Assembly (NCBI RefSeq): GCF_000091045.1
Contig: NC_006681.1
Coordinates: 833,947-897,946, forward strand
Direction of reading: 5' to 3'
Source of the DNA: Cryptococcus deneoformans JEC21
Taxonomy: Eukaryota; Basidiomycota; Tremellomycetes; Tremellales; Cryptococcaceae
Length of the DNA stretch: 64,000 bases
Both the position numbers and the translations under genes were made by a program. Below the pieces are notes generated by a model, which was given only the letters and a program-made list of their open reading frames with translations, made no database searches and had not been told where the DNA came from. This document shows, in pieces, positions 35,800 through 42,200 of this stretch. Numbering within the stretch: position 1 is the stretch's first letter; the number at the start of each line of letters is the position of its first letter.

Positions 35800-38700
35800 A
35801 TGGCCGAAGATAATCATAACGAACCTCCGCCGCCCAATATACCGACGCCTACTTTCCCACAATCAAAAACAATAAACACAGCTTTCGCACGCTCACCCAC
35901 TACCGATAGTGAGATCGAGCCTGCTGACGAGGAAGAAGGAGATCATAGACCCTTCAACCCACGTACTTCCACTACTGACGAGCATCAAACGCTCTTCTAT
36001 CAAGACGCAAGTCACTTTAATGTTGAGCATCATGTCGGTCGAGTTTGCCGCAGTTTTGCGCCACTCGCACTCCTCGCCATCATCGCGCTTGCATTCATTC
36101 CTGTTGCATCTGCTACCGACCTAGATCCCTACACTTCATGTCCAGCACTTCCTCAGAAGAATACTCCTATTCTCTCTACCACCGGTTACGTTTTCAACCA
36201 TGTTGTAAGGTTTATCGGCCTTGACGACAGTTTCGTCGGCCAGCACCTCGCAAATGTCAAGAGGAATCTCGACAACACGAGTATAATTGAAGCTTGTATG
36301 GTACCTGTGCTCGTATTGTTGAGTGGCATGTTTGCGGGTTTGACTCTTGGGTGAGTTAAAAGGCTTCCTTTGCACAAAGGAGCATTGATTGATCTCGCGT
36401 AGTTACTTTTCTGTGGATCAGACTCAGCTGCAAGTGCTTGCTATTTCAGGAACACCTAAGCACCAAGAGTATGCTAGGCTTATCATGCCAGTCCGGTACG
36501 TCAGCTTCTAATTGTATTTTGGACGTTATTGACGTATAAAAAAATGCAGAAAAAATTCACACTTGCTTCTTACCACTCTAATTCTCGGTAACATGATTGT
36601 TAACGAGGCACTGCCTGTTGTCATGGACGGTCTTTTGAGCGGTGTTGTATCCGTCGTCGTCAGTACCGCAATGGTTGTCATGTAAGTCTCATTCATATCA
36701 TGCCCTCTTTTCAACTGACATCAGTGTAGTTTTGCCGAGATCATCCCTCAATCAATTTGTTCCCGGTATGGTCTCCTCATTGGTGCTCGTATGGCCTGGC
36801 CAGTCCGTATCATGATTTGGATCGCTTATCCCATTGCATGGCCAATCGCCAAACTTCTGGAATGGGTTCTTGGTGCGCATCACGGAATCATCTACCGCCG
36901 AGGCGAACTTCGCGAACTCATCAAGATGCATGCCGCGGGCGGTGAAGGTGGTGGCGACTTGGATTTTGATACTGTACAGATCACTCAAGGCGCTTTGGAC
37001 CTTGCTCGAAAGACGGTTAAGGATTCCATGACAGCCATTGAGCAAGTGTTTATGCTTCCTATCGAGGCAAAGCTCGACTATGAGACATTGGGGCATGTTG
37101 TGAGGTCTGGCCACTCGCGTATTCCGGTCTACCAGATGGTCGAAGTTCCTGATATTGATCTTTCGGCTCCTACTCTTGGTCCCACTAAGACAAAGATGGT
37201 TAAGAAAGTTTTGGGCAGTTTGCTTGTCAAGAGCTGTGTTCTGCTGGATCCTGAAGGTGATTCTAATCAAGCTTGCAGCTAAACCTACAACGAATGCTAC
37301 TGACTGAGTCGCAGACGCTACTCCTCTTGCTTCTATCCCCATCAACGCCATCCCTTCTATCCCATTCGATGAGCCCTTGACCAACATGCTCAACGTCTTC
37401 CAAGAAGGTCGCTCACATATGGCCATTGTCTCTCGTCGTGTACGCCGTGTGGGGCCTGTCGATCCCGAAGATGCCCAGTCTGCCATGACCGCTGCTGCCG
37501 GTGGCCTTCGTCAACGATTCTTCCGAAGGGTTGCTGGAATCTCTGGTAATCGATCATTCTCTGATGGCGACTCTTCTGCTTCTGGAGAAGAAGACCTCGA
37601 AAAGGGCGAAGGAGGGAAGAAAAAGAAGCGAAGGCGCAAGAACGCTGAGAAACATGATCGGGCTGGTAGTTGTAGTTCTGACAATCACACTATCGTTAGA
37701 CCCATTTCTAGTGACGATGACGGGTTTACGGAAGCCGATGAAATTAAGCGTATGGCAAAGGAACAGCAAGAAGCAGAAATGAAGCAGCAGCGCGGGAAAG
37801 ACAGCAAAAAGGGATCCCTCGTTCAGGCCGCGAAGTTGACTCAGCTCGAGCAAAGTGTCCCTGCCGATGCTCAATTGTCTAACGACGCTGTGGAAAACTT
37901 CTTCGATGGTTTGGAAGGCGCACCATTGGGTATCATCACGCTTGAGGATGTCCTGGAAGAGCTTATTGGAGAAGAAATTTATGACGAGTAAGTCATCTTT
38001 GTAATGTATAGAGAATTCTTGACTGATAAGCGCGATAGGTACGACGAACATGGAGTGCCTCGTTCAGCAGCATCCGCTTTCGTCCCTCTTGAAGCTATGC
38101 TTGCTGCTCGAAAAGCTGCTCTCGCCCGTCAAGAACTCGCTATTGCCCAATCTACCCCAATTCCTCCAGTCAGCGATGCCGATGTTGAGCAAGTTGTTGC
38201 CGCACCTACTCCTGGTGCCGGTCGACGGGTCAAGGCGAAGATTCAGATCCCCAAGTTTTCGTTGAAGAAACCCGTTTCTCAACCCGGCAGGCCTAGAACT
38301 GAGCGTTTGGCTGCTAATGAAACGCCTGCCGCTACTCCCCCAGCTGATCCACCTTGTTATACCAATAAACCCGACGAGAAGTCCACATACAGCGCTCAAA
38401 TTATCACAATCCCTGGTGAATTGGATGAACCGCCTTTAGCTTGTGCACAGTCAGATAGCAGGCTTGTTAACCGCCGTCTCTCTACTCCACTTGATTCTGG
38501 TGCTACCGCCACTCCTTCACCTCAGCCCCAGTATAGCTTATCAGTCCCAGGCCCTGCATCTGCTGTACCCACTCGTCTCCTTCCTGCTGGAGGGACTGTT
38601 TCAACCCCAGCTGTCATACCTACATCACATCAACCGAGCTTGTTGAACGAAGCAATCTTCATTGGGCGTGAGCGAAAGCGTATGGCCGCTTCCCACCCTG

Positions 38701-38966
38701 GTCAGGTACGAAGCCAAAGTTCTGGTCCTACCGTATCTTCTAAGCAACCTACCCCTCCGATTTCAGTTTATGATTTTGGTATTCAAGCGGCGGGAGTGAA
38801 TGGAGAGAGAGTTGAAGGACAAGAGATTGTATCTCCCCGGCCGATAGCAGCGCAACAGAAGAAGATCCCCAAGTTCAAGAGTGTACCCACGCCTGTTGCT
38901 ACTCCCTCTTTTGGCTTCGATCCATCAGCCGAAAGCAAGAGTAGCAGTCGGGAGGAAAAGGAGTAA
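35800..38966 (+). CDS. MAM3: Mam3/CNNM-type DUF21 (and CBS) membrane protein
   Basis: Six exons: 35800-36350, 36403-36495, 36550-36681, 36730-37256, 37315-37987 and 38039-38966, coding for 967 residues. Relatives (yeast Mam3, animal CNNM) sit in vacuolar or plasma membranes and affect Mg, Mn and other metal handling. Residues 1-80 are disordered and acidic, followed by one helix. The DUF21 core has MVPVLVLLSGMFAGLTLGYF, LLLTTLILGNMIVNEALPVV and IFAEIIPQSICSRYGL. The CBS-pair region includes FMLPIEAKLDYETL, SRIPVY, MLNVFQEGRSHMAIV and LGIITLEDVLEELIGEEIYDE, split by a Lys/Glu-rich insert of about 120 residues. The last 300 residues are Pro/Ser-rich and disordered. It converges on the EXPERA-siroheme gene with 290 bases between stop codons. 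Confidence 0.93.
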
Positions 38967-39256: not shown

Positions 39257-39428
39257 CTATATGATCCCATTCAAAATCCCTCTCCATTCGTCGTTCAAAC
39301 CCTCCCTAACCTTCCATCCCTTTATTTCACCTTCCTGTCCCTCCGCTAACCAGCTCTCCACCATCTCAAACTCATCATCTTCCGACCTGTCAAGTACGTC
39401 CACCCTCCCCTTCCCTTCTAAAGCTAAC

Positions 39429-39496
<68 letters not shown>

Positions 39497-39770
39497 CTCA
39501 AGCGTCGAGAGAATTACTCGCTGATCAGGAGAGGACGCGCGTTCAATAACGGCGATCGGCAAGTGGGGCGGGTAAGCAGCGCCATCACGTCCGGTGGCAG
39601 TAGTGGCAGTAGTGGACGTGAGGACCTCGATGATTTGAGAAATACGCGCAACACCCATGAGCATAACGAGAGTTCTAGATTTGACATAGCCTGGTAGCTG
39701 AACAGCTTTCCCTTGCCTTCCCACACCAGTACAGAGGACAAGAGATTCCGCGACGCCTCGTTGAGTGACG

Positions 39771-39814
<44 letters not shown>

Positions 39815-39842
39815 TGGGATAACAGTTGATTCAAACCCGTGC

Positions 39843-39898
<56 letters not shown>

Positions 39899-39925
39899 TT
39901 TCAGCCTGACCACTGTCTCACCCCT

Positions 39926-39964
<39 letters not shown>

Positions 39965-40127
39965 GGCGCCTTCGGCGTTACCGGGGAATTTCTTTGCAAT
40001 GTGGAGTTTGGTAGAGTCCGGGATAAGTGCAAGGATCTCGGCGGGGACGAGTTTGTCGGAAAGGATGAGGGTGGCTGTGCGGAGTGCGGTGTGGGCGGCC
40101 ATCGTGAGTAAACCAGGGTGACCGGGA

Positions 40128-40162
<35 letters not shown>

Positions 40163-40229
40163 TGAAGCGTTAACTGTCTTCACGTCGTGGTGAGGAAGGT
40201 AGCCTTCGTCTCGCTGGCCCCAAATATCT

Positions 40230-40264
<35 letters not shown>

Positions 40265-40421
40265 AAGATGTTCAAAGCTGTAGTACTCTGACATCTGGTA
40301 CACCCATCTCATCCTTCTCAGTTGTTGCTCCTCGTCGCTCAGCTGCTGGGTGACTTCTTCAGAGTTGCGGCGAGAAATGGATGGGGTAGGGAGTTGGGGT
40401 ACGGGCGTATTGAGAGGTCCG

Positions 40422-40461
<40 letters not shown>

Positions 40462-40553
40462 CCCGGAGTTTCCCAACGTTATCAACTGCCTTGCCTACGT
40501 CTGCAGGTAGTCTGCTGACAATCTCTCGCTTTATCCTTCCGCTCATTCGACAG

Positions 40554-40585
<32 letters not shown>

Positions 40586-40941
40586 GTGCGAAGGGCCATC
40601 GGCACCGGCGAAACGGTGTACAGAGGGGAAAGTGTAAGTGGAGAAATGAGGCTGGTCAGAGATGTTGACAGGGATGTGAAGCGACAAACAGGTTTGGTAG
40701 ATGATTGTCGCAGAAGCGAGGGAGCGTCGAGAAGGAGTGGAGATGAGGGTATCGGTAACGCATGCGAGAGAAATGTCATGCTTTGTAAGGAGTTCTGACC
40801 AGGCGACAGAATCTGAGGCTGTATTCTGGAGGAGGGAAACCCGACCACCCTCTTCAAGCTCCTTGACCTCCTTAGCCACCTCTTCAGACGACGTGAGAAG
40901 GAAAACCTTGGCGTCGGCTTCGAGGAAAGTAAGCGCTCGAC

Positions 40942-40975
<34 letters not shown>

Positions 40976-42200
40976 AGACAAGGTGCGAGGGTGGAAAGTG
41001 AGTGGAAGGGCAGCAGGGAGTTGGGTCGGTTCTTCGGTAAGTGTGGAAGCTAATTTCTCGGCGAGAAATTCAGCGCGCAGCAGGGAGGTGGAGACCGGAG
41101 AGTAGACGGCATCACGTTTTAGAGCAACGGCAATGTATCGGCCGAGGACAATAGATACGATTGTAGGGAGAATAATCCATGTCCCGTTGGGGATAACCCA
41201 AACCATCCAAAATGTCCGCCTGTCATTGTGACCAACATTGCACCAGCCACAGAAGTATTCTGGATAGTCGTTAGCGCTTGTTCACAAGAAATGCTCTGAA
41301 TCTAATGGACGGGGAAAGCCATCGTATTGAAGCTCCACTCGTCACAGCCGTTCACCGGAAAGATAGAATTGCAGAACTCTTTGCTCATGCCCTGCGGACC
41401 CCTATACCTCACTATACCTCAAGTGATACGGGGAAAAATGAGACCAAGATTGGTGGTTCTACCGGAAGATCGCCGGAATGCCATCATTCCAATGTCACAC
41501 TTTCAGAATATTCTGCTTTCCGATTACACCTTCAAAGCGATCCGCGACTTTATGCCATGGCAAACGACAACATAAACCAACCCCCGCCGCGAGGAACATG
41601 ACCGAGGAATTAAACTCACCCTGAAGGAAGTATAAAATTGTCTTTGAGGCAGTCATAACAGTTCCCACAAATCCTATTAATGGCGCTACGGCGTGCAAGG
41701 GCTTGTCTCGAGGGGAAATGTGTTGGAGATAGAGGTAACCGATGGCGAGGAAGATTTCAACGACGTTAAGAAGGGCTGTGGGAAATGAAATTAGAAAAAT
41801 TGGAGTTACGAAAAGTTAAGTCCCACCTTGGGCAGCTGTAAATCCATCTTCTTCGTTGAAAGCTTTCCACCCATAGAGATAGTCGATCTATGCCATGTCA
41901 GTTAAACTCTTACACCTGTACTGCCGAGCTCACTTCGCCATAAGGAAAGTCGCTAGTTTATGTCAGCTCATTGCGTCAAGACAAATAATGTACCCACTTG
42001 TAAGGTTTCCATATCCAAGAAAGATCGCCGCCAGGCAAGCTTCGTGGTCTCATGAGACAGTATCCGGCATCTAGCGGCGGAGTTAGTGATGGCCCACGGG
42101 AAGGAACGATTTTGCACGACTTACCCCACGAGACGATAAGAGTCGTGAAAAGCATCCAGAGTGATATCCAGAGGGGTGGCTGGGAGGCTGGGGGGCTCAT
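39257..42200 (-). CDS. MET1: EXPERA-domain protein fused to siroheme synthase (Met8-Met1 type)
   Basis: Six exons: 42200-42125, 42070-41998, 41952-41934, 41887-41827, 41775-41620 and 41259-39257, coding for 795 residues. Residues 1-180 are a four-helix EXPERA domain of the EBP/TMEM97 type (DYLYGWKAFNEEDGFTAAQ, LLNVVEIFLAIGYLYLQ, WMVWVIPNGTWIILP). The same exon then runs without a stop into a Met8-like NAD domain (LSVLIVGSNRLAASRAL, about 220-360). A uroporphyrinogen III methyltransferase domain follows (RILLIGSGPGHPGLL, RLKQGDPFVYGRGGEE, about 499-750). The enzyme part makes siroheme for sulfite reductase. No Met lies between residues 147 and 367, so a separate siroheme start is not visible. 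The intron joining the two halves (41619-41260) is 360 bases, long enough for an internal promoter. Confidence 0.75.

Follow-up and report, generated by a model that had tools for sequence, protein, structure and literature searches.

To our knowledge, siroheme synthases, which make the cofactor used in sulfite reduction, have been treated as soluble enzymes. The trifunctional siroheme synthase of Salmonella, CysG (1pjq, 6p5x), has no EXPERA domain, and the siroheme synthases of Naganishia, Phaffia, Mrakia and Agaricomycetes begin their siroheme domain 4 to 51 residues from the start. The stand-alone fungal EXPERA proteins of Agrocybe (P0013), Pyrrhoderma (P0014) and Coccidioides (P0058; P numbers label the relatives compared here) have 173 to 213 residues and no attached enzyme. 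Unlike all of these, a minus-strand gene at positions 39257 to 42200 of a 64,000-nucleotide stretch of the Cryptococcus deneoformans JEC21 genome (contig NC_006681.1, positions 833,947 to 897,946; hereafter the window) reads as a membrane domain followed by a linker and then a siroheme synthase with the Met8-Met1 order of the Naganishia, Phaffia, Mrakia and Agaricomycetes enzymes. The reading that we favor, and regard as rather probable, is one gene and one polypeptide, made up of a membrane EXPERA domain, a linker and a trifunctional siroheme synthase, of single fusion origin and with an EXPERA domain that probably works.

The kind of enzyme, a siroheme synthase, is known; the surprising part is its stable fusion to a membrane domain. 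Named fused proteins are already present in databases, where they carry enzyme names. In literature searches that had subscription papers and preprints mostly outside their scope, no paper joined "siroheme synthase" with "EXPERA" or "emopamil" with "siroheme," and nothing joined uroporphyrin-III C-methyltransferase with Cryptococcus or emopamil with terpene cyclase in fungi. The excerpts returned for siroheme, gene fusion and fungi described the CysG fusion and sulfite reductase, with no EXPERA fusion among them. The combination of siroheme synthase, transmembrane and fungal gave only work that was unrelated by title, and none of the titles listed for Cryptococcus neoformans and siroheme concerned this enzyme.

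One reading frame spans both domains

The gene has six exons, given here with the fifth intron and the codon of M147 (nt, nucleotides).

42125..42200, minus strand: exon 1, start codon at 42200 in the context AACACCATG
41998..42070, minus strand: exon 2 (EXPERA)
41934..41952, minus strand: exon 3 (EXPERA), 19 nt
41827..41887, minus strand: exon 4 (EXPERA)
41620..41775, minus strand: exon 5 (EXPERA)
41260..41619, minus strand: intron 5, 360 nt, GTGAGT...CTAACGACTATCCAG
39257..41259, minus strand: exon 6, with the end of EXPERA, the linker, the complete siroheme synthase and the stop codon
41204..41206, minus strand: M147, first in-frame AUG of exon 6, context TTTTGG, T at -3

Rejoined from the raw sequence, the six exons give 2388 nt and 795 amino acids without an internal stop. 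The first-pass annotation had read the locus as a single 795-residue protein, and this is supported by the uninterrupted rebuilt frame, by relatives both near and remote, and by an open reading frame (ORF) resembling a spliced transcript. The stretch without methionine that it had pointed out is also present in the rebuilt frame, which has methionines at residues 147 and 367 and none between. Introns 1 to 5 are all GT-AG (54, 45, 46, 51 and 360 nt), and the fifth combines the donor GTGAGT with a CTAAC-type branch site that ends 10 nt before the intron end. Exon 6 sits within a 674-codon open frame, and 5' of the start codon at 42200 the frame reaches a stop without a further ATG. Intron 5 was considered as a repeat and rejected, a genome search having found its own copy only; an intron-borne RNA was sought in 41200-41700 with Rfam, which gave no match up to E 1.

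The encoded protein is laid out as follows.

41108..42179, minus strand: EXPERA domain, residues 8-179 (spliced), from a profile of stand-alone EXPERA proteins and the fold of a stand-alone relative
41009..41107, minus strand: linker, residues 180-212, of low confidence in the model of P0001
40622..40993, minus strand: Met8-type NAD-binding domain, residues 218-341 (Pfam)
40514..40588, minus strand: Sirohm_synth_M, residues 353-377 (Pfam)
40214..40339, minus strand: Sirohm_synth_C, residues 436-477 (Pfam)
39491..40147, minus strand: uroporphyrinogen-III methyltransferase (TP_methylase), residues 500-718 (Pfam)

Exon 6 had been described as passing from the last part of EXPERA straight into a complete Met8-Met1 enzyme. 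The end of EXPERA and the complete enzyme are indeed there, with no stop between them, but the junction is not direct: a linker of low conservation separates them, and the siroheme part begins at about residue 213. NAD_binding_7, Sirohm_synth_M, Sirohm_synth_C and TP_methylase all score above the Pfam cut-off, and by these four families the CysG-type layout, an NAD-binding dehydrogenase/chelatase with a SUMT domain, is present. For the relative P0001, TIGR01469 reaches 200.5 bits (cut-off, 185), while the whole-length CysG model (241.8 versus 400) and cysG_Nterm (34 versus 62.3) stay below their cut-offs. The catalytic D104 of CysG pairs with D330, in a stretch that is weak alone (i-Evalue, 0.4), and D330 is invariant in 12 of 12 aligned rows. 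A loss of the catalytic aspartate in the C. amylolentus group (P0002, P0003, P0005 and P0007; VTD to VTS at residue 298) was therefore rejected, the CysG D104 position being D330.

One transcript or two products

P0001, from the lgn source (contigs up to 5816 bases), has a 780-residue frame that crosses the five intron positions without inserted residues, and its sequence is best read as the assembled spliced transcript of a close relative. Other lgn-tagged ORFs are unspliced: P0129 and, by reading, P0009 contain translated introns, and P0129 agrees with the window sequence translated through introns 1 and 2. The exon 5/6 junction is crossed in one frame, with or without an intron there, by P0009, P0010, P0191, P0193 and P0195.

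That two neighboring genes have been joined wrongly by read-through is extremely improbable. Such an error would suit Kwoniella shandongensis, in which an EXPERA protein (KAA5525386.1) and a siroheme protein (KAA5525387.1) have consecutive accessions and are presumably neighbors. However, the split between these models falls inside the EXPERA domain and cuts it in two, P0012 ending in VLPNG and P0133 beginning with MPFIVCIVLGRF, and the fused frame recurs in many species, including in ORFs called without splicing.

We also consider it very unlikely that the locus gives two products, the second starting inside the 360-nt intron and yielding an M147 form with one membrane helix and the siroheme synthase. 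Alternative start sites are common in Cryptococcus and some lie within introns, for instance in CNC03460, according to the available part of the source (PMC11302930). Intron 5 is about 7 times longer than the other four, methionine occurs at 147 or 148 in P0001 to P0005, P0007 and P0008, several Kwoniella proteins have a methionine just after the helix, and the ORF P0011 is called from M147. However, P0011 is an ORF call and not a transcript, the five relatives named above cross the junction in one frame, and methionine stands at column 147 in 3 of 24 aligned fused rows (P0008, outside the alignment, has it there too, and P0002, P0003, P0005 and P0007 have it at 148). Because M147 has T at -3, is preceded in exon 6 by out-of-frame AUGs at 41238 and 41226 (M147 itself being at 41206), and would retain the last membrane helix, a promoter in intron 5 is an unlikely source of soluble enzyme. 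A shorter product from M147 appears possible but minor.

The fused arrangement recurs in one clade

The same domain order, which the first-pass annotation had proposed to seek in related basidiomycetes, was looked for and found, recurring in one clade. The proteins compared were the best 120 of 2630 matches to the siroheme part and 120 of 127 matches to EXPERA, and the count of fused species, which comes from these parts of the matches, is therefore a minimum. A search restricted to proteins of comparable total length and scored on residues 1-200 gave 11 proteins, all with siroheme-synthase domains, including those of Cryptococcus amylolentus, two Cryptococcus sp. DSM strains, C. wingfieldii, C. 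floricola, C. deuterogattii and Cryptotrichosporon argae. Among the matches listed, a profile built from 30 stand-alone EXPERA proteins matched 32 of 120 distinct siroheme proteins, and 30 further siroheme proteins, their N termini judged by reading, carried the last EXPERA helix in whole or in part. Labeled by hand, 121 rows comprised 63 with EXPERA evidence (including the window), 3 with the linker only, C. depauperatus, 15 unclear truncated ORFs and 39 with none.

In a quick IQ-TREE tree of the 121 siroheme domains, displayed with midpoint rooting, every one of the 63 EXPERA rows lies on one side, of 85 rows, of a branch with a Shimodaira-Hasegawa-like approximate likelihood ratio test value (SH-aLRT) of 100. 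The other 22 rows on that side are 13 unclear ones (too short), 5 without EXPERA, 3 with the linker only and C. depauperatus. Across the branch are 36 rows, 34 with none and 2 unclear, which include Naganishia, Phaffia, Mrakia and Agaricomycetes. The order names Tremellales and Trichosporonales given to tree rows are our own presumed assignments. As judged from these domains, the simplest history would be one fusion and a few later separations.

The genome (19,051,922 bases, 14 contigs) was searched exon by exon, and genes split by many introns can therefore be missed. Diphthine synthase, which we take to carry PF00590, is absent from the PF00590 genome matches. Within that scope, family and protein searches found one siroheme-synthase locus and a single-protein search found one copy of the window EXPERA. 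The siroheme-enzyme family PF01077 has a match on the same contig, at 540815-541222. An EBP-family match on contig 6 (1073177-1073583), the one further EXPERA-type gene found in the genome, was considered as a second copy of the window EXPERA and rejected: its exons look TMEM97-like by reading, and the single-protein search led to the window locus only.

It is possible, though we find it doubtful, that the polypeptide is real and its halves have unrelated jobs, bundled by chance fixation and each kept as the only copy. The lack of a second copy of either half in the single-protein and exon-wise searches is consistent with such bundling, as are the separate occurrence of both halves in other fungi and the lineages in which EXPERA is degraded or seems to have been separated. 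Against it stands the persistence of the architecture in one clade, over many lineages that have diverged from each other (63 of 85 rows, with 13 more too short).

The EXPERA domain is conserved in fused proteins

The reference was a set of 56 stand-alone EXPERA proteins, in which 35 positions are conserved in 90% or more of the sequences. Twenty-five fused rows were aligned, of which eight partial or degraded ones were left out (P0009, P0010, P0012, P0036, P0180, P0191, P0193 and P0197). In the other 17 fused domains, which are near full length, 540 of 590 cells at these positions are unchanged, and 41 of the 50 changes fall at positions 21, 37 and 152. W25, D26, R33, P34, D58, N80, E83, K121, Y125, H139, N140 and W156 are kept in 17 of 17, E129 in 16 of 17, and N153 in all 16 rows having a residue there. 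Identity to P0002-P0007 is 61-63% in EXPERA, 52-59% in the Met8 part, 74-86% in the methyltransferase part and 12-16% in the linker. At the level of sequence, this identity and residue pattern are those of a constrained EXPERA domain. With the family residues retained, EXPERA is probably still a working module that binds or isomerises lipids or sterols.

An EXPERA domain that has no activity of its own and merely holds the enzyme at the membrane is unlikely. Anchoring alone would not require the conserved residues, so the 540 of 590 cells kept (partial and degraded rows excluded) and the presence of D26, D58, E83, K121, H139, N140 and W156 in 17 of 17 speak against a passive anchor. On its side are Vanrija, which loses conserved residues yet retains hydrophobic stretches, and the C. 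depauperatus siroheme protein P0134, with another hydrophobic N terminus.

The stand-alone proteins P0013, P0014 and P0058 have the same domain (41-53% identical) and keep the same conserved residues. EBP, the sterol delta8-delta7 isomerase (6oht, 8w0r), is 18-19% identical. The EXPERA superfamily has conserved acidic residues at EBP positions 80 and 108, according to an excerpt of PMC4263179; D26 and D58, conserved in the family, may pair with them, in a half whose profile alignment is nonsignificant. In a likewise nonsignificant stretch, the position of EBP His76 is apparently not His in the window protein.

The listed EXPERA relatives carry the UniRef names "hypothetical," "EXPERA domain-containing" and "C6 transcription factor"; the last, borne by the ascomycete P0050, P0059, P0065, P0072, P0077 and others, is very likely a propagated misnomer. 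In the available part of one Fusarium proteome paper an EXPERA protein is merely listed (PMC7807804).

Proposed arrangement and points against it

In the arrangement that we favor, the N-terminal EXPERA domain would lie in a membrane, most likely that of the endoplasmic reticulum (ER), as four helices. The C terminus of the last helix would be on the cytosolic side and carry the siroheme synthase through a flexible linker. The ER location and cytosolic C terminus are predicted from the helices of the P0001 model and from EBP topology, as far as the excerpt of its source describes it (PMC4263179). The methyltransferase, dehydrogenase and ferrochelatase would make siroheme for sulfite reductase. 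A single event close to the root of the Tremellales-Trichosporonales lineage would have fused two genes that other fungi keep apart. The likeliest function would be to tether the enzyme to the membrane, in agreement with the expected topology. It is quite unlikely that EXPERA is an active sterol or lipid sensor that sets siroheme output and so couples membrane sterol metabolism to sulfite reduction; if it were, this would reveal the job of the stand-alone fungal EXPERA family. A membrane-bound form across the whole clade, at the sole siroheme-synthase locus found in the genome, would shift the presumed site of siroheme making in these fungi. The fusion also offers a handle on the fungal EXPERA family, by which the role of its members becomes testable.

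Several observations weigh against this proposal. The Pfam EBP/EXPERA family (PF05241) gives the window protein 13.1 bits, below the curated cut-off of 25.7; P0006 (16.2) and P0137 (13.7) score similarly, and P0013, P0014, P0036, P0058, P0090, P0134 and P0197 have no match. Because of this score, the EXPERA identity is taken from stand-alone fungal relatives, some so named by UniRef, and from fold comparison. The model of a stand-alone relative has the four-helix EXPERA fold; Foldseek gave no match at E <= 0.001, the best being EBP at 3.2e-3. When the full model is compared, the siroheme part outweighs the rest and the root-mean-square deviation is high, so the identity leans on the stand-alone model. 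A hydropathy scan of the window protein finds three hydrophobic stretches only (75-96, 106-127 and 145-175), the first helix being below threshold.

Other points concern the history and need of the fusion. Within the clade, the ORF calls P0170, P0172, P0175, P0190 and P0208 lack EXPERA; because such ORFs are unspliced, this could equally well reflect an intron in the linker or a genuine separation. A further 13 rows are too short to judge. P0170 and P0172, which have their own start-like methionine and adjoin the fused, low-quality Saitozyma model P0180, disturb a clean single-fusion picture. In Vanrija pseudolonga (P0197), EXPERA lacks W156, E129 and the D58 region. In C. depauperatus, the N-terminal EXPERA half is found in P0106 and P0109, whose contigs measure 1.46 and 1.47 Mb, and in P0036, to which no contig is assigned, and P0134 is on a 2.42-Mb contig; strains may differ between these records, and a broken fusion with the parts apparently on different contigs is possible. 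The fused arrangement can therefore be lost. Saccharomyces cerevisiae makes siroheme with separate Met1p and Met8p, according to an excerpt of PMC7018833, and its only EXPERA member is of the TMEM97 type (PMC4263179, in part), so that an EXPERA domain of the window type is dispensable for siroheme chemistry.

Convergent with the gene, on the plus strand at window positions 35800-38966, is a neighbor that by reading resembles a CNNM/DUF21 membrane protein.
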